Source: Micavibrio sp.
Lineage (GTDB): Bacteria; Pseudomonadota; Alphaproteobacteria; UBA9219
Assembly (NCBI GenBank): GCA_020718105.1
Contig: DYDA01000021.1
Span: 1-39,527 of the forward strand
Direction: 5' to 3'
DNA length: 39,527 bases
Shown in pieces: positions 13,784 through 26,339 of the stretch (position 1 is its first letter; each line of letters opens with the position of its first letter). The position numbers and the translations under genes are program-made. A model generated the notes under the pieces. The model saw nothing but the letters and a program-made list of their open reading frames with translations. It was not told the origin of the DNA and ran no database searches.

Positions 13784-15286
13784 TTACGCCCGAACCTTTT
13801 CCAAGAACGTCTTGACCTTCTGGCTGAGAAGGCCGGATTGGTTGGTCAATTTATTGGCGGCCGCTTGCACTTGCGTTGAAATGGCGCCCGTTTCTTCGGC
13901 GGCGCGGCTGACGCCGCTGATCGTGCGTGATACATCACGTGTTCCCGTGGTGGCTTCGGCGATGTTGCGGGCAATTTCTTGCGTTGCCGTTCCTTGCTCC
14001 TCAATCGCGGCGGCGATGCGCGTTGAAACCTGATTAATCCCAACGATGGTTTCGCGAATCTTTTCAATTTCGCCCACGGCAATGCTTGTGGCTTGTTGAA
14101 CGCTGCCGATTTGATTGGTGATGTCTTCTGTCGCTTTGGCTGTTTGGGTCGCCAGCGATTTGACCTCGCTGGCCACAACGGCAAAGCCTTTGCCCGCTTC
14201 GCCCGCCCTTGCCGCTTCGATGGTCGCATTGAGCGCCAGCAAATTCGTCTGGCTGGCAATCTCGCCGATCAGGCTGATAACGCGGCCTATCTTCTCGGCG
14301 GTTTCGGCCAAATCGCGCACCGTCTTATTGGTCGTGTTGGCTTGTTCAACGGCTTTATGCGTGATGTCCGAGGATTCTGTCACCTGACGGCTAATCTCGC
14401 CAATGGAAGCCGTGAGCTCCTCTGTGGCCGTTGCAACCGTTTGCATGTTCGATGAGGTTTGCTCAGCCGCCGCCGCAACGGTTCCCGTCAGCTTGTTCGA
14501 CTCTTGCGATGTTGAAGCCAGCGTATCGGCGGACGCTTTAAGCTCATGGGCTGATGTTGTCACATCATCCACAACTATTTTGACGCTCTCTTCGAAATCT
14601 TTGGCGAGGGTTAGCATTTCCTCGCGCCGTTGTTTCATAGCGCTCAGCGTGATCCATGCCAGAAAGCCATAGGCCAGCGTCAGGCCTAAAAACGCGATGA
14701 GGATGTGATTCTTTTTGACGGCAGAGGTATCCGAAATCATCCCTTCATTTTGGTTGTTGATGCCCGCTTCAACCAACGTCACAAGGTTTTTAAGGTGATT
14801 AATAATTTGGGTTCGTTTGTCACGCGAGTCGTTGACGGTGCGATCCAGCGTGTCGTTGTATTGCGCCTTATCGATCAGACCAAAAACAGTCGTGCCCAAT
14901 TCGGTATATTTTTGAGTTTCTTTTTGAATGTCTTGCAGAACAAGAAGGCGATCAGGGGCTTCGTTGATTTTGGTGAGCCCCTCAATATGCTTAAGGAACT
15001 CCTCCGTTTTTGTTTTAAAAAGAGCCTGCTGCTTTTCTATTTCTGTTTTTTCATTCAAGGTCGGCGCGGCGCGTAAAATGGTTGCGATGTCGTTGACGAT
15101 CCCCATGCTTTCCATGATCAGGATGCTTTGTTTCACTTCGATGGCAATGATGTGTTCGGATGAGGCCAGAATGTTTGTAAAGCCTTGCCTTGCCGTCACC
15201 ACGATGACGATGCAGACCAAAAGAACCAGAACCTGCGGAATAAAAACTTTAAAAAGCAAGCTGCTTTGCGTCCACCAGCGAAACAT
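13784..15286 (-). CDS. methyl-accepting chemotaxis protein
   Basis: Inner-membrane chemoreceptor, 500 residues. TM1 is about residues 10-32 (VFIPQVLVLLVCIVIVV); a periplasmic four-helix-type ligand domain covers about 33-190; TM2 is HILIAFLGLTLAYGFLAWI. A short HAMP-like linker follows, with no clear full HAMP. The cytoplasmic coiled coil has the conserved tip [20 protein letters not shown]. Start ATG at 15286 (MFRWWTQ) has GGGAGA about five to six bases upstream; the GTG 30 bases earlier lacks one. There are no che genes nearby. It lies beside the pilus cluster, convergent with aspS, so a link with surface motility is possible but unproven. Ligand unknown. Confidence 0.92.
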   Translation of the reverse strand: MFRWWTQSSLLFKVFIPQVLVLLVCIVIVVTARQGFTNILASSEHIIAIEVKQSILIMESMGIVNDIATILRAAPTLNEKTEIEKQQALFKTKTEEFLKHIEGLTKINEAPDRLLVLQDIQKETQKYTELGTTVFGLIDKAQYNDTLDRTVNDSRDKRTQIINHLKNLVTLVEAGINNQNEGMISDTSAVKKNHILIAFLGLTLAYGFLAWITLSAMKQRREEMLTLAKDFEESVKIVVDDVTTSAHELKASADTLASTSQESNKLTGTVAAAAEQTSSNMQTVATATEELTASIGEISRQVTESSDITHKAVEQANTTNKTVRDLAETAEKIGRVISLIGEIASQTNLLALNATIEAARAGEAGKGFAVVASEVKSLATQTAKATEDITNQIGSVQQATSIAVGEIEKIRETIVGINQVSTRIAAAIEEQGTATQEIARNIAEATTGTRDVSRTISGVSRAAEETGAISTQVQAAANKLTNQSGLLSQKVKTFLEKVRA

Positions 15287-15518
15287 GAGATTCTCCCTTT
15301 TGTTGCTTGCCTTCACTTTTAATAAGTAGAACGATAAAAAAAGGTTACCGTATTAATATGATTGTATGTCTTATGCGTAATATAGATATGTAATAGTGGC
15401 GTATGCATTTTGGTTTTGATTGTCATAGCTGAGCTTGAATACATTTGTATTATTGCCCTCAATTGACGGGAACTCTCCCTTTGCGTTTTTGGTTAAAAAT
15501 GAGTATCAATCCCCTTCC

Positions 15519-16445
15519 ATGAGTGTCCTGTTTAATGCCCTTCACAAAGCGGCGCGTGATTACAGAAGCCAGAAAGCTCCTGTTCTTGTTCCGCTGTTGT
15601 CCTTGCATCCTGCTTTCTCATTACGAAAGCGGGTTCTGTTTTTTTCTGTTCTGGGGGCTCTTCTTTTCGGTGTCATAGGTATGCTTTCTCTTTCTGGCGG
15701 TGAGGTGGCCGTTGCGAAAGAGGGGGGCTTCAAACCGAACGTTGTCCCTGTGTCTTTACCGGTTAAGGCGAGCGTTCCTTTAAAAAATGCGCGGAAAATG
15801 CAAGAGGACGAGCCGCTTGGCATTGCCCTGTCCGAAGGCAGTCAATCTTCTGAAGTTCAGGATAAAACCGTTAGGGCGGCTCCAGCGCCTGTTGCAAAGA
15901 CGGGTGTGTTGATTGCCGTGACGAGGGCTGAAAAAAAGGTTGAAAACAGCGAGGATGAAGCGGGCGGCGACATGTTATCACGTGCGCGCAAAGCCGCGCA
16001 AAAAGGCGCTTGGGATACGGCGCTTAAGCTTTATAGCACGATTTTGAAAAAGGATCCGCATAACCAAGCGGCGCTGCAAGGTACGGTGGCTGTTCTCTCG
16101 CAGCGTGGTGGCGATGAGGATTTAGAGGCGTTGGACGCGTTGGCTGAAAAAGCCCCTTCGATGGCTTCGCTTCATGCGGCGCGCGCCCGCATTTTAGTGA
16201 GGCAAAAAGATACGATAGAGGCGCTGACCGCTTGGCAACAAGCCGTCGCGTTGGATCCCAAAAATAAAGACTATCGTTTGGGTTTGGCGATTTTAAATGA
16301 TAAGTTGGGGCGGCAGAGCGAAGCGCTCAAACTTTATCGCGCCATTCCCAAACCGTTGCCGCCTGAAGCGCAGCGTCGCTTGGATTATTTGGCATCGCAT
16401 GAGGCGTCATCGTCTATGGATAACGCGAGTGAGAGCGAAGAGTAA
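15519..16445 (+). CDS. MshN-like TPR protein of the pilus cluster
   Basis: 308 residues. It starts MSVLFNALHKAARDY, a motif typical of small cytoplasmic tails of pilus/secretion TPR and GspB-like proteins. One transmembrane segment (VLFFSVLGALLFGVIGML, about residues 39-58) is followed by a polar linker and a C-terminal TPR region (about 150-290: AQKGAWDTALKLYSTILKKD, LEALDALAEKAPSMASL, EALTAWQQAVALDPKN). The periplasmic TPRs may hold the secretin or pilus parts. The ATG at 15519 is chosen on the family N-terminus even though its Shine-Dalgarno is poor; a TTG at 15435 opens the longer frame. The ATPase gene follows nine bases downstream. Confidence 0.78.
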   Translation: MSVLFNALHKAARDYRSQKAPVLVPLLSLHPAFSLRKRVLFFSVLGALLFGVIGMLSLSGGEVAVAKEGGFKPNVVPVSLPVKASVPLKNARKMQEDEPLGIALSEGSQSSEVQDKTVRAAPAPVAKTGVLIAVTRAEKKVENSEDEAGGDMLSRARKAAQKGAWDTALKLYSTILKKDPHNQAALQGTVAVLSQRGGDEDLEALDALAEKAPSMASLHAARARILVRQKDTIEALTAWQQAVALDPKNKDYRLGLAILNDKLGRQSEALKLYRAIPKPLPPEAQRRLDYLASHEASSSMDNASESEE

Positions 16446-16453
16446 AAAGAGCC

Positions 16454-17341
16454 ATGCCTTTTTTATCGCATTTTGGCCTTGCCTCCTACCCCTTTGGGCT
16501 GACGCCTAACCCTGATCTTTATTATCCTTGGGTGGAAACGGAATCGCTTTTGGCAGCGCTTAAGTTTTCTATCACGCGTGGCGATGGCCTTTTAAAGATT
16601 GTGGGTGAGGTCGGCAGCGGTAAGACCCTTTTGTGTCGTTTGCTGTTGGACAGCTTAAACCAAATGCCGATTGATCTTGCTTATATCAACGCGCCCGTGG
16701 CGATCCGGCCTGAAGCGCTGCCTGCTTTGATCGCCCATGAATTCGGCGTGAAGCGCAAGGCGGGGCAAGACGAGGGGGAGGCGCTTCGCGCCTTTCTGTT
16801 GGCAAGGCATGCGCAGGGCCGTCGTTGTGTTCTGGTGATCGACGAGGCGCAGGCGCTGGGTGCGGCGGGGCTGGAGGTCGTGCGGCTTCTCTCAAATCTT
16901 GAGACGGAAACCGACAAGCTGTTGCAGATTGTTTTGTTCGGGCAGGCGGAGCTTGACCGGCTTTTGCATCAGAAGGCCTTGCGCCAGATTTTACAACGCA
17001 TCCATTTCAGCTTTATGACACGTCCGTTTCCGCGTGAGGTTGTGGATTCGTACATTCGTTTTCGCTTAGAACATTGCGCGGTGAAGGCGGGCAAGGGGCG
17101 GCACAAGAAAAGCGCTCTTGGCGTTTCCTTTGCGCCGCAGGCCACCGCGATGATTGCGAGTGCCAGTGGCGGCCTGCCGCGCCTTGTGAACGTCTTGGCC
17201 GATAAAGCCTTGCTGGCGGCCTATGCGCAGGGCGCGACGCTGATTGAGCCCGCGCACGTTCGCGCCGCGCGTCGCGAGACGCAGGGCCTTGCGTGGCCGT
17301 GGGGTTTGATTAGTAAATTCCTTCCATCACGGCGCCTGTGA
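16454..17341 (+). CDS. MshM/ExeA-like AAA ATPase
   Basis: 295 residues. Starts MPFLSHFGLASYPFGLTPNP, the usual ExeA/GspA/MshM opening. Walker A is GEVGSGKT (about residue 52-59), Walker B is CVLVIDEAQAL, and sensor-like sequence continues with LSNLETETDKLLQIVLFGQ and a C-terminal helical domain with GGLPRLVNVLADKALLAA. No transmembrane segment or peptidoglycan-binding domain, as in MshM rather than full ExeA. The family helps place the secretin in the envelope using ATP. It follows the TPR gene as in the msh order M-N (reversed here). Its 3' end overlaps the convergent small exported-protein gene by 32 bases. Confidence 0.9.
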   Translation: MPFLSHFGLASYPFGLTPNPDLYYPWVETESLLAALKFSITRGDGLLKIVGEVGSGKTLLCRLLLDSLNQMPIDLAYINAPVAIRPEALPALIAHEFGVKRKAGQDEGEALRAFLLARHAQGRRCVLVIDEAQALGAAGLEVVRLLSNLETETDKLLQIVLFGQAELDRLLHQKALRQILQRIHFSFMTRPFPREVVDSYIRFRLEHCAVKAGKGRHKKSALGVSFAPQATAMIASASGGLPRLVNVLADKALLAAYAQGATLIEPAHVRAARRETQGLAWPWGLISKFLPSRRL

Positions 17342-17711
17342 GAAGGTTGAGGCTTTGGTTGGGGCGGAGAATGACCTCGCGGGGTTCTTTCTCGCCTCTC
17401 ATGAGGATGGACAGGCGCACGCTTTCCGGCTCGACGCTTAAAATGTGAAGGTTGGGGCGATCCGTTTGCGGCGTCCACTTTTCGCCTTGCAGCCATACGA
17501 TCCATTGATCAGGCCCGACATAAACAAGGCTGCCGCAATGAAGAACATGCTTGGCTTGCGTGAGCAAAGTGGACCCTTCGCGGCGCAAGGCCGTTTCAAT
17601 TTGCCAGAGTTCTTGGGGTGAGTAAAACAGCGAGGTCGCTGCATCCTGCGCCTGAAGGGGGGTGGGGACGACAAGGATAAGCGCGGCAAGGAAAAGAACT
17701 TTTTTCCTCAT
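17310..17711 (-). CDS. MshK/PilP-like small exported protein
   Basis: 133 residues. Signal peptide MRKKVLFLAALILVVPTPLQAQ, likely cut after LQA. The mature part is a short beta-rich domain: HCGSLVYVGPDQWIVWLQG...RLSILMRGEKEPREVILRPNQSLNL. Position after the PilO/MshJ-like gene and this size match MshK, a PilP-related periplasmic link to the secretin. The ATG overlaps the preceding stop as ATGA. An ORF-wide start at 17747 would lie in the neighbour and is rejected. Last gene of the minus-strand pilus operon. Homology is inferred from position, size and signal, not from strong motifs. Confidence 0.7.
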   Translation of the reverse strand: MRKKVLFLAALILVVPTPLQAQDAATSLFYSPQELWQIETALRREGSTLLTQAKHVLHCGSLVYVGPDQWIVWLQGEKWTPQTDRPNLHILSVEPESVRLSILMRGEKEPREVILRPNQSLNLLTGAVMEGIY

Positions 17712-18310
17712 GGCGAGGCCGCTTCTTGGGGCGCGTTGGTTAGCCACAGAAATTGCGCTGTGACATGGAGGTTCAGCGCGGCCAGCGGTGAGGCATCGTT
17801 ATGAGTGATAGGTTTGATGGAGAGTTGTTGCAGATCAAGCCTGCCGCCCAGCGCGTTGAGGTGAGAGAGAAAGCCAAGGATATCGTTATCATGGGGCGCA
17901 TCGGCGTCCAGTGTTAGGGTGCTTTGCACAATGCCTTCAATGCCTGTGAAGGAACCTTCGCCCATCCACGCTTGTGCGGCAGAGAGAAGATAGTTCACGT
18001 TAAACAAACGCGCTGAAGCCGCGACGCTCTCAAGACGCTGTGACATTTGTTGGCGATCACTGGGCGCCAAGAAAGTTTCGATATCGCTGGGGCTCAGCGT
18101 GCCATCGATGGTTTTGGCTGTTTGTAGGTCTGCTTCAAATTGTACTTTTTGTTGGGCAAGGATAAAGAAGCGCTCCGCCAGTTCGTTTTGCGTAAGGCTT
18201 AGGCGAGAGTGCATGAAATGCGCGATGCGTGGCTCCATCAGCACAAGCAAAACAGCGCAGAAAAACCCTGTCATCCATGCGCGATGATAAAGCCATTGGG
18301 GACGTGTCAT
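17708..18310 (-). CDS. MshJ/PilO/GspM-like pilus assembly protein
   Basis: 200 residues: short cytoplasmic N-terminus, one transmembrane helix (MTGFFCAVLLVLMEPRIAHFM, about residues 13-33), a coiled coil (NELAERFFILAQQKVQFEADLQTAK), then a ferredoxin-like periplasmic domain ending DLQQLSIKPI...LNLHVTAQFLWLT. This is the plan of PilO, GspM and MshJ, inner-membrane partners of the PilN/GspL-type protein. It overlaps both neighbours by ATGA, so translation is coupled to the MshI-like gene upstream and the MshK-like gene downstream. Confidence 0.8.
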   Translation of the reverse strand: MTRPQWLYHRAWMTGFFCAVLLVLMEPRIAHFMHSRLSLTQNELAERFFILAQQKVQFEADLQTAKTIDGTLSPSDIETFLAPSDRQQMSQRLESVAASARLFNVNYLLSAAQAWMGEGSFTGIEGIVQSTLTLDADAPHDNDILGFLSHLNALGGRLDLQQLSIKPITHNDASPLAALNLHVTAQFLWLTNAPQEAASP

Positions 18311-19800
18311 GGCGCTTTCCTTTCGATCATGAATGTCGCTGTGGCCTTGGCTCCTTCGTTTTGGTTTTGGCTGGAAAGCGGTGCGTTGGGGGAAGGGGCG
18401 CGTGCGCTGCCCGTGACGGTGACGGCATAATCCGGCAGGCCGTCTTGTAGGGCGCGCAGCAACGCATCAATCTGAAGGCTGTTTTGATCGCGCTCAAGGC
18501 TGGTAAGTGTGGCGTTTTTTTCTTCCCCTTCTGGCTTGAGCAGCTTGATCTCAAGGATGAGGCGGTTCGGTTGCCAGTCCAGCGCGGTCGCCTTGGCGCG
18601 GCCTTGCAACAGGGGGGCTACCTCTTCCAACAGAGCGACAACATCGGGAGGCTCGTTTTGAAATAAGCGCCTGCGTTCGACGGCTTTGCGTAAGGTGGCC
18701 AGCGTTTGCGCATCATCGCCTGTCGCCGCGCTTGCTTGCGAGTCCCTAAAGCTTGTCTCAAGCCTTTGCACACTTTGGCGCGCTGCGCTTACGGCTCTTT
18801 GGCTTTTGATAAGAAGGGCGGCGTCTATACTTATCATCACAAAAAGAAGAGCTAAAACGAGGCCTGTCGTGATAAGCCCCATGCGACGGATAAGCGCCGC
18901 CTTATAAAGCATCCGCGTTTTCGGCGTCATCAACACAAGAGAGGGCCGTCGTTTTTGCGCCAGCGCAAGAAGGTGCACAAGATCGCTGTAAGGGTCTTGT
19001 TCAGGTGGCGCAAAAGGCAGGCCTAGCTTAACCGCCGCTTGGTGGGGCGTGAAGAAGAGGCGCGTGGTGACATCCATCGGTGTGACGGCCAATGATTCAT
19101 GTGTGGCGGATGGCATTACGGCGACAAGTGTTAGCGGTTCATCAGGAACTAGGCCAAAACGCGCCAGATAATCGCGCAAGGCTTTGACCTCAAGGGCGAT
19201 GGTGGAGGCGATAAGCCCCGCGCTGGCCGAAGATGGGGGCGTGGAGGTCAGGCGCGTGAAGACCAGTTGGCCATCGCGTGTGGCGATGAAACGGGTGCGC
19301 CCTGTTTTCTGTTGCGTCAGGCAAAAGGCCCAGCCCTTTGCCGCCGTAGGCTCAAGCTGCGCGGCTAGGCTTGCGCTTTCCATGGGCAGAAGGCTGACAA
19401 AACCCGATAAGGCAGGGCGCGTCTTCAGCCGCTCAAACCAAGCTGTTAGCGCGGCGTTTTCTTGGATGGCCACGAGCGTCGCGGTTTTGTTTTTTCTTTG
19501 CAAGAAGCCTTTCATTTCGGCCTGTTCAAAAGCGCTTTGCAATCGCCGCATCAAGATTTTAGTGCGATCCCAAAAGGCCAGCGATGGCAGCGTCTCTGTT
19601 TTATAAAGTTGAGCTTGTCCGTCATAAAGGATCAAGACGGGCACGCGTGGCGCAAGATTTAATTCGTGCATGATCGCACTTGTTTCGCCTTGATCGTTGT
19701 TGGCGGCAAAAACCGGATGAGCGTCTTTCAGATGCGCGGGCGGCAGCAAAAACGCGCCTTTGTCGCCGATCAAAAGAAGAAAGAGGCGTTTTGCGTTCAT
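18307..19800 (-). CDS. MshI-like PilM-PilN fusion
   Basis: 497 residues. The N-terminal 330 residues resemble the actin-like cytoplasmic domain of GspL/PilM proteins (LFLLLIGDKGAFLLPP..., GRTRFIATRDGQLVFTR). A single transmembrane helix at about 345-368 (MGLITTGLVLALLFVMISIDAALL) is followed by a coiled coil and a small periplasmic PilN-like fold ending VTGSAR...KATATFMIERK. So it joins PilM and PilN roles in one chain, as MshI or GspL do. Start MNAKRLFLLL at 19800 has GGGGA nine bases before it and lies four bases after the gspF-like stop; the longer frame to 19887 overlaps that gene too far. Confidence 0.82.
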   Translation of the reverse strand: MNAKRLFLLLIGDKGAFLLPPAHLKDAHPVFAANNDQGETSAIMHELNLAPRVPVLILYDGQAQLYKTETLPSLAFWDRTKILMRRLQSAFEQAEMKGFLQRKNKTATLVAIQENAALTAWFERLKTRPALSGFVSLLPMESASLAAQLEPTAAKGWAFCLTQQKTGRTRFIATRDGQLVFTRLTSTPPSSASAGLIASTIALEVKALRDYLARFGLVPDEPLTLVAVMPSATHESLAVTPMDVTTRLFFTPHQAAVKLGLPFAPPEQDPYSDLVHLLALAQKRRPSLVLMTPKTRMLYKAALIRRMGLITTGLVLALLFVMISIDAALLIKSQRAVSAARQSVQRLETSFRDSQASAATGDDAQTLATLRKAVERRRLFQNEPPDVVALLEEVAPLLQGRAKATALDWQPNRLILEIKLLKPEGEEKNATLTSLERDQNSLQIDALLRALQDGLPDYAVTVTGSARAPSPNAPLSSQNQNEGAKATATFMIERKAP

Positions 19801-19804
19801 GCTT

Positions 19805-21022
19805 TTACATCCCCTGTGCCAAAGGGGCGAGTGAGCCATAAACAGGCCCCAGAACGGCCAGAACGATCCACGCCAAAAGCCCGCCAACCAGAAGCGTGAG
19901 CGCAGGTTCTAACGCGCCAAGGAAGGTATCGATGGCTTCCTTCGCCTGTGCCTCGTAGCTCAACGAGATCGAGTCAAGAACGGTTTGAAGCGTTCCGCTT
20001 TTCTCGGCGATGATAAGGCGCTGCGTGATAAGGGGATCGAAAAGAAAGGCGGTTGCTTGGGATAAGGGAAGGCCTGTAAGCAATCTATCGCTGGCTTCCA
20101 AAATCTGCACCTCTAGCGCGGCGTTGCCGCTGGCCTGTGCCGCTGTTCTTAAAGCATCGGGCAGGGAAAGCCCTGCTTTGATCAGAAGGGCAAAGCTTCC
20201 CGTTAGACGCGCCAGCGCCGTTTTGTGAAACAGGGAGCCGATCACAGGAAGAGAAAGCAGAAGGCGATCCGTCGTGAGTTTAACAGCGTGATGGCGACGG
20301 CGCAAATTGATGAGGGGGAGAAGGAGGGTTAGCGTTGCAAGCGGCAACGCCCACCATAAAATGGAAAAGAGATGAGCGCTGTGAATTAAAAAGCGTGTCA
20401 TGGGCGGCAAGGTTGTGCCCAAACTTGTCAAAAAGGCGATGAGTTGCGGCACGACGAACGTCATCATAAAACCCGTCACGCTTAAGGCGAGGGCCAAAAG
20501 AAAGAGGGGATAACGCACGGCGCGGCGCAGTTGTTTTTTGATCGCTTGTTGTTCTTGAAGATGGCGGGTGAGGCGCGTGAAGGTTTGCGCAAGATCGCCG
20601 TTTTTTTCGCCAGCGTGAAGAATGGAAAGGGCGATGCCATCAAAAAAGAAAGGGAGCGATTCAAAGCTTTGCGTGATGGATGCACCTGCCAGAAATGTTT
20701 TCTCAACAGCTTCTAAATGATGGCGCAGATTAACATCGCCGGCGGCGCGAAGAACGTGGTGCAGCGCTTGCGCGAAGGGCATGCCGGTGTTGAGGAGATC
20801 GCGCAGTTGGCCGCAAAGGAGAGTGCGATCCTCTCCGCGTAGCGTGGGTTTGAGAGGATTGATCCAAAGAAAGGCCCCCCCCTCGCGCCGTTCGCGGGCG
20901 TCAATCAGCTCCATGTCTTGCCCGCGCAAAAGGACGGCCAAATCGTTTTCATTGGCAGCTGTCATAAGGCCTTTTTGCAACTGCCCCGCCGCGTTCACGG
21001 CGCGATAGGCATAGGCTGTCAT
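19805..21022 (-). CDS. MshG/GspF-type inner-membrane platform protein
   Basis: 405 residues, the usual length. Begins MTAYAYRAVNAAGQLQKGLM, the standard GspF/PilC N-terminus. Two T2SSF domains: about 68-190 and 270-395. Hydrophobic segments YPLFLLALALSVTGFMMTFVVP, LFSILWWALPLATLTLLLPL and LTLLVGGLLAWIVLAVLGPVYG cross the inner membrane. Conserved RLTGSFALLIKAGLSLPDAL and AEKSGTLQTVLDSIS are seen. The protein passes conformational change from the ATPase to the growing pilus. ATG overlaps the ATPase stop as ATGA. Confidence 0.95.
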   Translation of the reverse strand: MTAYAYRAVNAAGQLQKGLMTAANENDLAVLLRGQDMELIDARERREGGAFLWINPLKPTLRGEDRTLLCGQLRDLLNTGMPFAQALHHVLRAAGDVNLRHHLEAVEKTFLAGASITQSFESLPFFFDGIALSILHAGEKNGDLAQTFTRLTRHLQEQQAIKKQLRRAVRYPLFLLALALSVTGFMMTFVVPQLIAFLTSLGTTLPPMTRFLIHSAHLFSILWWALPLATLTLLLPLINLRRRHHAVKLTTDRLLLSLPVIGSLFHKTALARLTGSFALLIKAGLSLPDALRTAAQASGNAALEVQILEASDRLLTGLPLSQATAFLFDPLITQRLIIAEKSGTLQTVLDSISLSYEAQAKEAIDTFLGALEPALTLLVGGLLAWIVLAVLGPVYGSLAPLAQGM

Positions 21023-22761
21023 GGGCGCCCCCGTGTCAGATCAACGGCGCGACGTAGGTCGTCTATCGCGATATCGCCAGCGGCCACACGCATTAGGCCA
21101 TCTTGTTGCATCGTGAGAAAACCATCGCAGCGGGCGGCATCCAGCAGCGCGGCGCGGGGTGCCCCCGTCGCGATCAGATCATCGAGCGCGGGCGTGATGG
21201 GCAGTGCTTCGGCAATCACGGTGCGCCCCATGCGACCCGTATGACCGCACGCCTCGCAGCCATTGGCTTCGCTCAGTCGCGGTGCATCAAGGCCAAACGC
21301 GCTAAAAAGGGCGGCCTCTTCGGCGGTTGCTTCGCTTTCGCGCTTGCAATGGGGGCAAAGCGTTCGCACAAGGCGTTGGGCGATCAGTCCCGACAGATGA
21401 CCCGATAACACACGTGGGTTCAGGCCAAGATCGATAAGGCGCGGCAGCGCCCCCAGCGCATCGTTGCTGTGCAGCGTTGTATAGACTTGATGCCCCGTCA
21501 TCGCGGCGCGTAGCGCCATTTGCGCGGTTTCCGGATCGCGGATTTCACCGATCAGGATAATATCGGGATCCATGCGAAGAATGCCGCGCACGCCTGCGGC
21601 GAAATCAAGGCCTTGGTTTTCAGCAATCGAGGTCTGGCGGATAAGCTCTAATTGATATTCAACAGGCTCTTCCAACGTCGCGATATGAACGTCGGGCGTG
21701 CTGATTTTCTTCAGCATAGAATAAAGCGTCGTCGTTTTGCCGCTGCCCGTTGGCCCCGTCACCAGCGTGATGCCTTGCGGTTTTTCGGTCATGGTCTGAA
21801 GCCGCGCCAATGTCGCTGCGTGATAGCCTAACGCTTCCAACGGACGCAGGGACTTTTTGTGATCAAGCAGGCGCACAACAATGGTTTCGCCCCACACCGT
21901 CGGCATAATCGCCACGCGGCAATCGATGACGCTGCCGTCCTGTTGTTTTTGAAAACGGCCATCTTGGATGCTGCGCGTGTCAGCGATATTCATGCCCGCC
22001 ATGATTTTCAGGCGATGCGAAAGCGCAGGCCAGTGTGTCAAGTGGATGGCGCGGATTTGGTGAAGCTGCCCATCAAGGCGAAAGCGCACGCGGGCAAAGG
22101 ATTCCTCTGGCTCAAAATGAATATCGGATGCGCCCTGCCGGATCGCATCGGCCAGCAGATGATCGACAAGACGAATGACGGGATGTTCAACTTTAATGGC
22201 GGCAGGCGTTGCGGTGGATTCGATTTCCTGAAGCAGGTCATAAAGGTTATCGGCGCGTTTTGTCAGCTGATTTAAAAAAGACTCGATGGCGGTTTTTGTG
22301 ACAACGTGCAGCGCCAGCGTTGTCGCTTGCGGAAAAGCGCGTTTGATATCGTCAATCGCGACCAAATCGAATGGATCGGCCAACGCGACGGTCAGGATCC
22401 TGCCCTTTTGATCAAGGGGGAGCGCCATCGCGCTTCTGACTTGATGGGGCGAGAAACGCTCCATCAGCGTCAGATCGGGCGTAGCCGTATCCAAGGACAA
22501 AAAGGAAAGCCCCGCATGAGCCGCCAGCGCCTTGGCAAGGCCTTCTTGATCCAAAAAGCCAAGAGCAACAAGCGAGCCGCCCAGCATAAGGCTTGTTTTC
22601 TTTTGCTCGTGCAGCGCGATGTGAAGTTGATCGGGCGTGATGATGTTCTCACGCACCAGACGCTCACCAAACCGGATCGGCGCGCGTAAAGCGGGAAGGG
22701 CTTCGACTTCGTCGTCTAACCTTTCATCGTCAAGAGCATAGGATCGGGCGGTTGCTTTCAT
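21019..22761 (-). CDS. MshE/GspE/PilB-type assembly ATPase
   Basis: 580 residues, complete. N-terminal MshEN-type domains (GERLVRENIITPDQLHIALHEQ, then LGGSLVALGFLDQEGLAKAL). The C-terminal hexameric ATPase has Walker A GPTGSGKTTT (about 335), Walker B MDPDIILIGEIRDPETA, and the His-box MTGHQVYTTLHSNDA. A tetracysteine zinc site is formed by CPHC and CEAC. The MshEN region in related proteins can bind cyclic di-GMP; whether this one does cannot be told. Start ATG 22761 has GAGAAG close upstream and follows the pseudopilin stop by six bases; the ATG at 22773 is an alternative with no Shine-Dalgarno. Confidence 0.95.
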   Translation of the reverse strand: MKATARSYALDDERLDDEVEALPALRAPIRFGERLVRENIITPDQLHIALHEQKKTSLMLGGSLVALGFLDQEGLAKALAAHAGLSFLSLDTATPDLTLMERFSPHQVRSAMALPLDQKGRILTVALADPFDLVAIDDIKRAFPQATTLALHVVTKTAIESFLNQLTKRADNLYDLLQEIESTATPAAIKVEHPVIRLVDHLLADAIRQGASDIHFEPEESFARVRFRLDGQLHQIRAIHLTHWPALSHRLKIMAGMNIADTRSIQDGRFQKQQDGSVIDCRVAIMPTVWGETIVVRLLDHKKSLRPLEALGYHAATLARLQTMTEKPQGITLVTGPTGSGKTTTLYSMLKKISTPDVHIATLEEPVEYQLELIRQTSIAENQGLDFAAGVRGILRMDPDIILIGEIRDPETAQMALRAAMTGHQVYTTLHSNDALGALPRLIDLGLNPRVLSGHLSGLIAQRLVRTLCPHCKRESEATAEEAALFSAFGLDAPRLSEANGCEACGHTGRMGRTVIAEALPITPALDDLIATGAPRAALLDAARCDGFLTMQQDGLMRVAAGDIAIDDLRRAVDLTRGRP

Positions 22762-22766
22762 GCTTC

Positions 22767-23603
22767 TCACCATGTCGTTTGACAGGCGGGATTGCCAAGA
22801 GCGGTGACCAGCGCGTCGCGCCCCGCATAAACCATCACGTCATCATAGGGCGCGGTTGGATCGTTTGAAAAGGGCGCGTCAACAAACGCCAGATCGCCGT
22901 TGGCGTTGCAGCGCTCAAACCCGCCTGTGGCTGTGCAAGGCGTCAGAGCGCCTTTAAAGAGATGATCATTAAGGCCTGCGCTGACGGAGGGATCAGCCTT
23001 AAACGCGCCAAAGCCGTTCGCGCCGTGGCTAAGGAACAGGATGGAGGCTTGTTGCGTGCCGCCGCCAACGGTTGCGACAGCAATGCGATTAGAGGAGGGC
23101 AGGTTGGCTCGGCACAAACCCTTGCGGCTTTCGCCGGTCACGCAAGGGGCTGGATCGCTGGCTAAGCAAAGCGCGGTTGGCGGCACGACGCCGAAGTTGA
23201 TGGTCAGCGCAGGATCAACGCGCATCGTGATCCAACGTCCCCAACCGTCCTTGGCTATTTGCTGGGGTATGCCGAGAGAGATAAAGGGCACGATGCCCTC
23301 GGCCACAGAACAAGTGCCGCAAGATGACGTAACGGTATCGCCGCGCACGCGCCCAAAGCTCGCATCTGTTGTGGCGGCTGGCGTGGGGCAGGGTAGGCAG
23401 CCGTTGGCTTGGACAAAGGCGGTCGTCGCCCTCATTAAGGCTTGCAGATTGCTTTGCGTGGTGCTGGTTTGCATGCTTTGGCGAAAGACGGTCAAGGCGG
23501 GGAAAACGATCATGATCACAAGCCCGACAACGACCAGCACCATGCTCATCTCGGCAAGGGTGAAGGCTTTTCTATTATCAAAAAAGATTGTCCGTAAGGG
23601 CAT
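22767..23603 (-). CDS. Cys-rich type IV pseudopilin
   Basis: 278 residues. Short basic leader MPLRTIFFDNRKA, then FTLAEMSMVLVVVGLVIMIV, the prepilin helix with Glu at +5; position -1 is Ala instead of Gly, which prepilin peptidases tolerate. The body has GCLPCP after the helix, and many further Cys (SSCGTC, ALC, APC, GLC, TPC, ERC, ACQ) that could form disulfides. Long for a pilin, so a minor or tip-like subunit similar to MshO/MshP-type proteins is plausible. Open frame continues upstream to 23831 through a repeat, but the leader demands the start at 23603. Its Shine-Dalgarno, GGGGGAGGG, lies in the repeat end. Confidence 0.85.
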   Translation of the reverse strand: MPLRTIFFDNRKAFTLAEMSMVLVVVGLVIMIVFPALTVFRQSMQTSTTQSNLQALMRATTAFVQANGCLPCPTPAATTDASFGRVRGDTVTSSCGTCSVAEGIVPFISLGIPQQIAKDGWGRWITMRVDPALTINFGVVPPTALCLASDPAPCVTGESRKGLCRANLPSSNRIAVATVGGGTQQASILFLSHGANGFGAFKADPSVSAGLNDHLFKGALTPCTATGGFERCNANGDLAFVDAPFSNDPTAPYDDVMVYAGRDALVTALGNPACQTTW

Positions 23604-23608
23604 GGCTT

Positions 23609-23772
23609 TTCCCTCCCCCTTGCGGGGAGGGATAGGGAGGGGGGGGCGACGCTGAGCTGAGGCGGGGACGGTCAAAAACAAAGTCGATATTTTCTTCTTA
23701 ATCGTACTCCCCCCTCCCTTGCTCCCACTGCTATCGCAGTGGTCACTTTCCCTCCCCGCAAGGGGGAGGGAA
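23609..23772. repeat. 164-bp element with perfect 24-bp inverted ends
   Basis: The left end (23609-23632, TTCCCTCCCCCTTGCGGGGA...) and the right end (23749-23772) are exact inverted repeats of 24 bases. Inside is a smaller hairpin CCACTGC-TAT-CGCAGTGG near 23726-23743. It occupies nearly all the gap between the two pilin genes. No transposase. It resembles a non-autonomous palindromic element; its end gives the ribosome binding site of the pseudopilin gene. Confidence 0.85.
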
Positions 23773-23815
23773 GGGATTGCTTTTATGGTTTTGCGAAGGA
23801 ATCGCTTCATTGATC

Positions 23816-24472
23816 TTATATCCTTACGCACATCGTATAGGTGTTGTCGTCGCTGTAGGTCGCTGTGGGCGCGTTCGCGCTGCTGCCCGTGGCGTTGGTG
23901 TAGGGCGTGGATTGAATCGCGCCTGCGTTGCTTGTGCCATCGTCCAGCCGCGCATCGATGGCTTGCGCTGCGCCCGCCGTGACTTTATCCATGCATAAAA
24001 CGGTGGTGGTGAACACGCCGCCGAATGCGCCGTTTTGAAAACCAAACACGCCGCCGAAAGGATTAGGCGGTTGAATGGCCGTCGTGCCGCTTGTGACTTG
24101 GTTCTTCACAAGTCCTGCTGCGCGAAGATGCGCCCAAACGTGAAGGCTCTCGCTGGCTGTTCCTGTTGTGCTTGTTGTGTCAAACGAGCTGGCCGTGCCG
24201 ATCTTGCCATCGTTGTTGCCGTTCGTGCTTTGCGTCATGGAGGGAAAGCGCGTTGTCGCGCTGGGGTCGTCTCCTGGCATCGTGCCATAGTTTTGGGTAT
24301 AAGTTTGCAGTTGCCCTTGATAGGCTTGAATGCCGTTGATCGCGTTCGTGATGCGGGCGTTTTGGATGATTTGCTGTCCCGTCAAAACGCCGCCGATAAT
24401 AAGGCCGATGATGACCAAAACGATGGACAGTTCAACAAGCGTAAAACCAGATTGCGTCGTTTTGTTTTTCAT
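23816..24472 (-). CDS. type IV prepilin, major-pilin type
   Basis: 218 residues. Leader MKNKTTQSG is cut before FTLVELSIVLVIIGLIIGGV, a textbook prepilin site with Gly at -1 and Glu at +5. After the N-terminal helix (to about NAINGIQAYQGQLQTYTQNYG) come Asp/Gly-containing loops (MPGDDPSATTRF, NGNNDGKIG) and a Ser/Thr/Gly/Ala-rich globular domain. Two Cys (VLCMDK and TMCVRI at the extreme C-terminus) may form the usual D-region disulfide. It lies 13 bases after the secretin stop with GGAG before the ATG. Likely the abundant subunit, since the repeat downstream may separate it from the assembly genes. Confidence 0.92.
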   Translation of the reverse strand: MKNKTTQSGFTLVELSIVLVIIGLIIGGVLTGQQIIQNARITNAINGIQAYQGQLQTYTQNYGTMPGDDPSATTRFPSMTQSTNGNNDGKIGTASSFDTTSTTGTASESLHVWAHLRAAGLVKNQVTSGTTAIQPPNPFGGVFGFQNGAFGGVFTTTVLCMDKVTAGAAQAIDARLDDGTSNAGAIQSTPYTNATGSSANAPTATYSDDNTYTMCVRI

Positions 24473-24485
24473 TTTCTATCTCCGT

Positions 24486-26339
24486 CTAGCGCTGGGGTAG
24501 GGGAAGAGGGCGGGGGTCGCTGTTGTACTTTTTATAAAGAGCCGTATCGGCTTTATCGGGCGTGGCGTTGTTTAAAATAGTGGCGCGAAGCAGGATCACC
24601 AGCTCGCTGGTTGTACCTTGGTTATCGCGTGATTTGGCAAGGTTGCCGACGATGGGCAGCGCATCAAACGGTGGAATGCCTTGATCCGAGTTTTCCGAGC
24701 TGTCTTGCATCAATCCGCCCATCACCGCGACTTCGCCCGATTGCAGTTGCAGAACGGAGTCCATCTCGCGCACCGCCAGAACGGGGATTTGCGATTGAAT
24801 GGGGTTGGTCACGCCCGCGTTCGCAGCGTTCAGCCCTATCGAAGGATCGTTTACGCGATCAATAACGCGCGAGATCGTGGGGCGCAGCGTCATCGTCACG
24901 CGGTTCGTATCGTTGTTGATGGCGGGTTGCACCGTCATGACAAGCCCGACGGGAACGGTGCGTGGCGTGCTGGAAAACACGGGCGTTCCCGATACGACAA
25001 CGCCCGCCGCGTTGGTGGTGGTGGGAAACTGCGCCGATGTCAGAAAGTATACTTCGTTGCGGGCGACTTTTAACACGGCGGTCTGATTGTTCATGACCGT
25101 CAGGCGCGGCGAGGAGAGAACGCGCGTCGTGCCGAACGTGCGGACAAGGTTGAGAATGCCGTTAAAGTCCTTGGTATCAAGGGACGCTGTAAAAAGACCC
25201 GATGAGGCGGCCGTCATCGCCGCGCCCACGCCCGGCGCGCCAAAGTTGGCGGCAAGGCCCGTTGCGCCTTTAAAAAGGGTTGACCAATTCACACCGCTTT
25301 GAAACTCATCGGATAGCTCAACCTCAACGATACGCGCCTCGATCAAAACTTGTGAGGAAGCTTTGTGATCAAGGCGCGTTAAGAACGTGGCGACGGCCTC
25401 TTGCTGGCGGCTGTTGCCAAAGACGGTGATCAATCCTGCTTGACGATCGATGCTGTAATTGGACTCTGGTTTTGCATCGCCTGCGCGTCCTGTCGTCAGC
25501 GGCTTATTCTTGATGGCGGTGGCAAGAACCTGTGGCAGCGATTTTTCAACTTCGCTCCAGAAATCAGCGTCTGAGCTTCCGGCAATTTTCGAGGTGGAGT
25601 TGTTGTCGCTTCCGCTTTTGCCGCTACCATTGCCGCTGCTATTATTGCTGCCGCTGTTGCTGTTGCCCGCCACGTCAACGTCAAAAACATTGGTGGCGAT
25701 GGTCACTTCGCTGGTCGTCTTGCGCGAAAGGCTGAGGTGATCAAGGGCATAGGTTTGCTGATACGGCTCATCCATTTCAATGCGGATAAAATCGCCATCG
25801 GCTTTGTAACGCAGCCCCGCAAGGTCGCAAATGCGGCGCAAAACGGTGTCAAAGGGCTGGTCATGCGCGGTAAAAATAATGCGGCCCTCAATGCGCGGAT
25901 CAATCTCTAGGTTCACTTCGCCCTCGCGGCCAAGCTCAATTAAAATGTCGCGCAAGGGAACGGAATCCGAAATCGTCACGCTGACTTTTTTATCCGGCAA
26001 GTCGGGGCTGTACAGGCTTTCAGGAAAAAGAGCTTCGGGCAGCGCAGGAATGGGTGGCGGCGCGTCTAGCGATAAAGCAGGCAGGGACAACAAAGCCTCT
26101 TCTAAATCGGGAAGAGGCGGCTGTTCTTCAGGGGCGTTTTTTTCTTTTTTCTTGGGCTCGCCGCGATGGCGCAAGGCCAGATAATCCTCACGATCCATAT
26201 TGCCAGCAGGATCAATTTTGTCAGGAGGAAAAGTATTGGTGCAAGAGACTAAAAAGAGACACAGGCTCAAAACAGTCAAAGGCGTCTTCAACAAAGCACT
26301 CACGCGTAACCGTTCCCGTTTCTTTTTCAACAAAAGCAT
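24486..26339 (-). CDS. MshL/PilQ/GspD-type outer-membrane secretin
   Basis: 617 residues. Lipoprotein signal with lipobox LVSC near residue 33. A proline-rich linker is followed by an N0/STN-like domain (VSVTISDSVPLRDILIELGREGEVNLEI) and a secretin N1-type domain broken by a Gly/Ser/Asn-rich insertion (about 225-255). The C-terminal secretin channel (about 330-595) has VPVGLVMTVQPAIN and the closing signature GEVAVMGGLMQDS...GIPPFDALPIVGNLAKS. It forms the outer-membrane pore for the pilus. Start at 26339 lacks an obvious Shine-Dalgarno; a GTG 12 codons later is possible. First gene of the minus-strand pilus operon. Confidence 0.93.
   Translation of the reverse strand: MLLLKKKRERLRVSALLKTPLTVLSLCLFLVSCTNTFPPDKIDPAGNMDREDYLALRHRGEPKKKEKNAPEEQPPLPDLEEALLSLPALSLDAPPPIPALPEALFPESLYSPDLPDKKVSVTISDSVPLRDILIELGREGEVNLEIDPRIEGRIIFTAHDQPFDTVLRRICDLAGLRYKADGDFIRIEMDEPYQQTYALDHLSLSRKTTSEVTIATNVFDVDVAGNSNSGSNNSSGNGSGKSGSDNNSTSKIAGSSDADFWSEVEKSLPQVLATAIKNKPLTTGRAGDAKPESNYSIDRQAGLITVFGNSRQQEAVATFLTRLDHKASSQVLIEARIVEVELSDEFQSGVNWSTLFKGATGLAANFGAPGVGAAMTAASSGLFTASLDTKDFNGILNLVRTFGTTRVLSSPRLTVMNNQTAVLKVARNEVYFLTSAQFPTTTNAAGVVVSGTPVFSSTPRTVPVGLVMTVQPAINNDTNRVTMTLRPTISRVIDRVNDPSIGLNAANAGVTNPIQSQIPVLAVREMDSVLQLQSGEVAVMGGLMQDSSENSDQGIPPFDALPIVGNLAKSRDNQGTTSELVILLRATILNNATPDKADTALYKKYNSDPRPLPLPQR

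Follow-up and report, generated by a model that had tools for sequence, protein, structure and literature searches.

A compact gene cluster of an alphaproteobacterium labelled Micavibrio sp. probably encodes an MSHA-like type IV pilus machine of an alpha/beta lineage

Which machine is encoded by a block of ten genes that resemble parts of the mannose-sensitive haemagglutinin (MSHA) pilus, when these genes lie in an alphaproteobacterium? According to a large survey of type IV filaments, the MSH family had until then been reported under that name from Gammaproteobacteria alone; the survey adds Chrysiogenetes and Epsilonproteobacteria, in a sentence that omits the Alpha- and Betaproteobacteria (PMC6668835). 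Our search of the open-access literature on MSHA in Alphaproteobacteria returned nothing on point, and the alpha/beta side branch of the MSHA family treated here has had little or no prior attention. We analysed a 39,527-nucleotide stretch of DNA from Micavibrio sp. (contig DYDA01000021.1; hereafter the window), in which the block occupies positions 15,519-26,339. An earlier reading made from the letters alone (the sequence-only reading) had named ten MSHA-type parts and proposed a reduced pilus or a secretion machine. We conclude that the locus probably holds the full set of genes for an MSHA-like type IV pilus machine, in a compact form, belonging to an alpha/beta sister lineage of gamma MSHA. 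This conclusion draws on the grouping of the secretin with MshL, the best matches of five further proteins (M, N, I, J and K) to MSHA counterparts, the folds predicted for J and K and the MshEN domain of the ATPase, together with the presence of the same block in relatives of the order and the joint loss of secretin and ATPase.

Results

Ten intact genes in a closely packed block

The ten open reading frames are all intact, with zero internal stops in both the open reading frame listing and direct reading. Their positions, and that of a repeat element among them, are:

15519-16445, plus strand: N, membrane-anchored tetratricopeptide repeat (TPR) protein assigned to MshN, 308 aa
16454-17341, plus strand: M, AAA ATPase assigned to MshM (GspA/ExeA type), 295 aa
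17310-17711, minus strand: K, exported homology region (HR)-domain protein assigned to MshK, 133 aa from ATG, with an alternative GTG start at 17747
17708-18310, minus strand: J, PilO-like inner-membrane protein assigned to MshJ, 200 aa
18307-19800, minus strand: I, fused PilM/PilN-like protein assigned to MshI, 497 aa
19805-21022, minus strand: G, inner-membrane platform protein, 405 aa
21019-22773, minus strand: E, assembly (extension) ATPase with MshEN domain, 584 aa
22767-23603, minus strand: P2, Cys-rich type IV prepilin-like protein, probable minor or tip pilin
23608-23774, no strand: repeat element of REP/MITE type (repetitive extragenic palindrome/miniature inverted-repeat transposable element), with 30-nt inverted repeat arms, between P1 and P2
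23816-24472, minus strand: P1, type IV prepilin, probable major pilin, 218 aa
24486-26339, minus strand: L, MshL-type secretin, 617 aa, with a lipoprotein signal (LVSC)

The minus-strand genes L-P1-P2-E-G-I-J-K are closely packed, the exception being a 212-base gap between P1 and P2. They overlap by 4 bases at K/J, J/I and G/E and by 7 bases at E/P2, as in a tight operon. The convergent ends of K and M share exactly 32 bases, the figure that the sequence-only reading had given; its MSHA-type assignments were upheld in independent tests for the secretin, M, N, I, J and K, as described below. Membership in the MSH family was judged by the model of Denise 2019, in which mshA, E, G, L and M are mandatory and MshI, J, K and N accessory; the cluster has the MshL-type secretin, MshM, MshI/J/K/N and a locus free of a peptidase gene.

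The secretin and five further proteins match MSHA counterparts

L matched the MshL model TIGR02519 at 2e-63 (214 bits) and the Pfam Secretin family at 2e-28, and in profile-profile comparison (hhalign) it scored 1.5e-69 with MshL versus 3.5e-21 with GspD. In the secretin tree L lies inside an alpha+beta clade (100/98), which together with gamma MshL is split from PilQ and GspD, again at 100/98. M, which has an AAA_22 match (3e-25), aligned with MshM at 4e-76 and is 36-42% identical to MshM from gamma MSHA loci. N, with Pfam TPR matches, reached MshN at 1.4e-10, against a 3-member profile and mostly in the TPR region, and its N-terminus, MSVLFNALHKAARDYRSQK, resembles MshN starts.

I, J and K gave zero Pfam or NCBIfam matches and needed hhalign comparison against reference sets defined by position. 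The reference MSHA loci were taken from gammaproteobacterial-type genomes found with TIGR02519 and have the canonical order I-J-K-L-M-N-E-G, followed by pilins; as controls, PilMNOPQ and Gsp loci were drawn from genomes of the reference set and their genes assigned by position and length. I was closest to MshI (7.8e-10; PilN 4.6e-4, GspL 1.3e-3, PilM 0.06), J to MshJ (1.7e-4; PilN 8.9e-4, PilO 0.01, GspM 0.04) and K to MshK (1.1e-4; PilP 0.02 (0.019), GspC 0.38). When members from the larger, Micavibrio-type clusters described below were included in the profiles, the match of I to MshI improved to 4.6e-12 (next best ~4e-4) and that of J to MshJ to 6.8e-7 (next 4.5e-4), and K stayed with MshK at 4e-4 (next 0.06).

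Predicted structures agree with these assignments. In the AlphaFold (AF2) model of J (pLDDT 80) a long helix at the N-terminus is joined to a ferredoxin-like domain, and the best match of the model in the PDB is PilO (2rjz; VIA Z 10.5, 98 residues, 3.0 Å), with GspL/GspM domains lower. The model of K (pLDDT 83.5) is a beta domain whose first nine VIA matches are HR-type domains or machine parts (GspB/GspC/PilP and Dot/Icm entries); the top ones are GspB (4wfw, 24% identity), GspC at 6.1 and PilP at 5.1-4.6, the Z of 7.4 for GspB lying where chance arrangements occur and giving support, not proof. Foldseek alone returned no significant match for K (best E 0.32), HR domains being ranked top only in VIA; hmmsearch with J and K profiles against PDB sequences yielded nothing meaningful, and PADLOC nothing for J or K. 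Taken together, the comparisons support I, J, K, M and N as MshI, MshJ, MshK, MshM and MshN, and the assignments that the sequence-only reading gave to I, J, K and N held, each having its best match in the MSHA counterpart against the type II secretion system (T2SS) and type IVa pilus (T4aP) controls.

The ATPase and platform belong to an alpha/beta clade

E matched PF00437 (T2SSE) at 2e-114 and the MshEN family PF05157 at 1.5e-15, and scored 56.8 bits with NF053729, the MshE-related c-di-GMP (cyclic dimeric GMP) domain, above the cut-off of 38. A first ATPase tree held very long branches (4.7 for an ATPase on contig C42) and was rebuilt without them. E lies inside an alpha+beta-operon clade (100/98), GspE and PilB group together (85/76), and gamma MshE falls on the GspE+PilB side relative to the alpha/beta clade plus a third MshL-bearing group (99/97). 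Provided that the root separates T2SS/T4aP from the rest, which is assumed, the secretin and ATPase trees both read (MSHA gamma, (alpha/beta, third group)). The phylogeny thus sets the secretin with MshL and the ATPase clearly with neither T2SS nor T4aP. With regard to the earlier assignment of E to the MshE type, the MshEN domain is present, and in the tree E lies in a branch outside gamma MshE.

G matched PF00482 (T2SSF) at 5e-42, its top NCBIfam model being GspF, below the equivalog cut-off; in the platform tree it sits in the alpha/beta clade at 100/99, with no supported attachment to MshG. No window protein reaches the NCBIfam equivalog cut-off for MshL, PilB, GspE or GspF, which marks the system as divergent.

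MshE of V. cholerae binds c-di-GMP through two 24-residue motifs (PMC5013675). In E the first of these, RFGERLVRENIITPDQLHIALHEQ, has Asn in place of one key Gly, the second, MLGGSLVALGFLDQEGLAKALAAH, is without the Arg and the Gln, and neither fits even the relaxed motif of that study. Binding of c-di-GMP by E is uncertain; the retained MshEN fold would make nucleotide control possible, with c-di-GMP motifs that are degenerate, the second most so.

Two pilin-like genes

P1 and P2 are the only pilin-like genes in the locus. P1 matched PF07963 above the cut-off (2e-6) and has a class III leader, QSG/FTLVELSIV (slash, cleavage); an IDxxLDDG-like motif and a C-terminal Cys are conserved across 19 relatives, and the N-terminal helix strongly so. 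The N_methyl match of P2 (0.0013) is below the Pfam cut-off and its TIGR02532 score above (19.7 bits vs 16.3). P2 has a conserved NGC(L)PCP motif and a conserved E5; its best start, the ATG at 23603, gives a short leader, MPLRTIFFDNRKA, ahead of FTLAE, and at the -1 position of cleavage, where 11 of 13 aligned rows have Gly, the window has Ala.

The gap between P1 and P2 contains the REP/MITE-like inverted repeat (167 bp; arms 93% complementary; chance expectation 0), made of two near-palindromic units of 25-30 nt each. Promoter and terminator scans gave no signal above chance level, and a tRNA was the sole Rfam match. Adjoining the cluster and divergent from N is a methyl-accepting chemotaxis protein-like gene (13784-15316).

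The block is the standing arrangement of its order

We next turned to relatives of the window's genome. Of 32 genomes sampled from this order, the secretin occurs in 28 and the ATPase in 29; both are present in 28 and both absent in three. Under random placement, with relatedness ignored, the odds that all three ATPase-less genomes fall among the four secretin-less ones are 4/4960. The genomes without either gene include a 100%-complete member of the same genus (G003), which makes the system dispensable. One relative (L084) has the entire block, L-P1-P2-E-G-I-J-K with M and N reversed, and three more (L070, L087, L229) have most of it; the recurrence of the block in independent genomes, at roughly 26-76% protein identity, is more than chance. 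In one genome (G010) the ATPase lies on a separate contig, which suggests a split cluster in some members.

The order E-G-I-J-K and the fused I also occur in five Micavibrio-type clusters (L247, L249, L253, L254, L266), and in Oxalobacteraceae and Sulfuricella a fused I and a J-like gene come after E-G. The sequence-only reading had called the gene order rearranged. It does differ from that of gamma MSHA but is the lineage's standing order rather than a local oddity, and we dropped the idea of a local rearrangement because the order recurs in relatives and E-G-I-J(-K) is found in other alphaproteobacteria and Oxalobacteraceae as well.

Two side observations concern the same gene families. Four Oxalobacteraceae loci (L272, L271, L277, L288) have two E/G pairs back to back, a gamma MshE/MshG-type pair on the opposite strand and an alpha/beta-type pair in an M-L-N-E-G-I-J operon. 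Holosporales-like or small genomes (L077, L078, L080, L134 and others) have MshL-type secretin genes without MSHA neighbours, and in several of them ATPase genes are located away from the secretin.

Related clusters carry an ABC module

Micavibrio-type clusters are larger. Three of their additional genes encode an ATP-binding cassette (ABC) ATPase, an ABC-2-like permease and a periplasmic protein; the others encode a PilD whose N-terminus bears an A24_N domain, two ATPases of the PilT family and an AraC-type regulator that is hydrophobic in its N-terminal part. Oxalobacteraceae loci contain relatives of the first three, and Rhodospirillaceae LM-1 has relatives of the permease and the periplasmic protein. 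Neither the window's genome nor any of the 32 order relatives yielded the periplasmic protein. Since the larger clusters have these extra parts, we regard the window cluster as the compact form of its lineage. The description of the pilus as reduced applies only relative to the Micavibrio-type and betaproteobacterial clusters; the missing peptidase is a general trait of MSH loci (PMC6668835).

The module was seen at L247:1-15513, L253, L254 and L266 (Micavibrio-type), at L287, L275, L267 and L281 (Oxalobacteraceae) and at L268 and L082, and in several alphaproteobacteria the AraC-type regulator accompanies it.

Could the window cluster instead be the decaying remnant of a larger one? The absence of the ABC module, and of the PilD and two PilT-like ATPases of the Micavibrio type, would fit decay, as would the Ala at the cleavage site of P2 and the splitting or loss of the system in some order relatives. 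With all ten open reading frames intact and the block kept across the order, we consider decay very improbable. A broader proposal, which we put forward only tentatively, is that the window holds the minimal form of a distinct alpha/beta type IV filament branch, sister to Vibrio MSHA, whose fuller forms have a dedicated ABC module, and that the incomplete 'T2SS' of the predator Micavibrio would be this machine.

Peptidases, PilT-family ATPases and other machines of the genome

The genome has four secretins, eight T2SSE-family ATPases and three A24 prepilin peptidases in total. The sequence-only reading had noted two pilin-like genes and no PilT or prepilin peptidase gene, which is true of the cluster but not of the genome. 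A search of the genome for pilD and pilT gave the A24 peptidases for the first and divergent PilT-family members for the second. A protein at C42:44040-44813 is related to the PilD of the Micavibrio-type clusters (36% identity, 6e-25, Pfam A24) and is, judged by this similarity, the most likely candidate peptidase for P1 and P2.

Three divergent PilT-family ATPases, two of them in tandem, lie outside the cluster at C3:17225-19282 and C13:1974-2999. They are 44-50% identical to one another and ~30% to PilT, are without the AIRNLIR motif and score 111-122 bits against a cut-off of 319; as retraction motors of the cluster we found them unsupported. The V. cholerae MSHA pilus uses the shared PilT (PMC9815625).

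A Tad set is located on contig C12, as is a T4b-like set (C12:67000-79500) with a PilN-type secretin, a large GspE-like ATPase, a PilS-type pilin and a DotB-like ATPase (395 bits vs a cut-off of 463). Contig C42 holds, at 84100-93600, another type IV pilus-like set made up of secretin, ATPase, platform and pilin; its ATPase is very divergent (end branch 4.7) and joins none of the reference families.

Searches of the genome with PF04350 (PilO) and PF05134 (T2SSL, for GspL) gave no match, so that the cluster parts are not strays from a T4aP or a T2SS. The PilMNOPQ alignment complex that defines T4aP is thus without its PilO here, and the secretin is not PilQ; for T2SS, GspL is absent and I/J/K are closer to MSHA than to GspL/M/C. 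In a genome without T4aP, the machine might pull in DNA, and the three PilT-family ATPases could be cited in favour. These ATPases are outside the cluster and without AIRNLIR, and the Vibrio MSHA pilus is an adhesin, not a competence pilus; we regard DNA uptake as improbable.

A stronger alternative is that the MSHA-like parts build no more than a short pseudopilus in the periplasm to push folded proteins through L, in place of a T2SS. A search for T2SSL found none in the window's genome or in 12 further genomes of Alphaproteobacteria, of which five have Micavibrio-type clusters and one of these five is labelled Micavibrio sp.; only the Oxalobacteraceae genome matched. G has GspF as its best NCBIfam match. 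For M. aeruginosavorus, a 'functional' T2SS that lacks GspC, G, H and K has been reported, with up-regulation while the cells attach to prey (PMC3189940). As the five genomes with Micavibrio-type clusters have no T2SSL match, that T2SS may, by analogy, be the MSHA-like machine. Against a secretion role, the secretin, M, N, I, J and K are all MSHA-like, and the locus is without GspC, GspL, GspM or a full pseudopilin set; P1, with its 218 aa, strongly conserved N-terminal helix and C-terminal Cys, argues weakly for a long pilus. We consider secretion unlikely, and of the two possibilities raised by the sequence-only reading, the pilus is favoured.

Discussion

For the MSHA-like pilus, the parts suggest the following mechanism. 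P1 (major) and P2 (minor or tip) would enter the inner membrane, and a peptidase encoded outside the locus, most likely the PilD-like protein on contig C42, would trim them. Hexameric E would drive the platform G, which would feed pilins into the filament at its base. I, J and K would bridge E/G across the periplasm to the secretin, the cytoplasmic PilM-like part of I recruiting E, J providing a PilO-like element in the periplasm and K touching the secretin with its HR domain. The filament would leave through the lipoprotein secretin L, and M and N, as an ExeA/ExeB-like pair, would help L through or onto the peptidoglycan. That such a filament forms, is retracted and serves in adhesion is what we infer from these parts.

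Several points weigh against this reading. The score of L is below the NCBIfam equivalog cut-off of 250 for MshL, and E and G, as placed by their sequences, do not appear to nest within gamma MshE/MshG. Approximately unbiased (AU) tests with alpha/beta E constrained to GspE, PilB and MshE gave p values of 0.056, 0.045 and 0.028, all borderline, so the ATPase alone does not decide the placement. Homology of P1 to MshA appears established for the N-terminal helix only, none of the usual MSH minor pilins B, C, D, O, P and Q was seen in the locus, and no filament has been reported in the lineage, as far as our literature search could find. MshF and MshH were also not seen in the locus.

Within one uncultured order of Alphaproteobacteria the MSHA-like lineage is widespread, and through the class it is scattered; its presence in cultured Oxalobacteraceae and Rhodospirillaceae provides cultured organisms for testing. 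The odd T2SS of Micavibrio predators gains a new possible explanation from it, and it connects a pilus to an ABC transporter module.

Comparison with known systems

The gamma MSHA locus of Vibrio and Shewanella reads mshH-I-J-K-L-M-N-E-G-F-B-A-C-D-O-P-Q. The window shares with it counterparts of I, J, K, L, M, N, E and G along with prepilins, the MshL-type secretin, MshEN and a peptidase outside the locus, but differs in its order (L-P1-P2-E-G-I-J-K with M-N convergent), its two pilins, its degenerate MshEN motifs and the separate alpha/beta clade of its ATPase and platform. The alpha/beta clusters of Oxalobacteraceae, Sulfuricella, Rhodospirillaceae LM-1 and Micavibrio sp. RYN_474 are closer, sharing the secretin clade, ATPase or platform clades, E-G-I-J(-K) and the fused I. 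Unlike the window, Micavibrio, LM-1 and Oxalobacteraceae clusters carry the ABC module, those of the Micavibrio type also have PilD and the PilT-family pair, and in beta clusters M adjoins L. Myxococcus T4aP loci hold a proposed ABC transporter, PilGHI (PMC6060248); its likeness to the module of the Micavibrio-type and beta clusters is that of a proposed ABC transporter within a pilus locus. With T2SS (Gsp) the window has in common homologous ATPase, platform and secretin and the folds of J (GspM/GspL) and K (GspB/GspC), but it lacks the GspC/L/M and GspG-K set in the locus and a T2SSL match in the genome. With the T4aP (PilMNOPQ) it shares the PilO fold of J and the PilM+PilN-like make-up of I.

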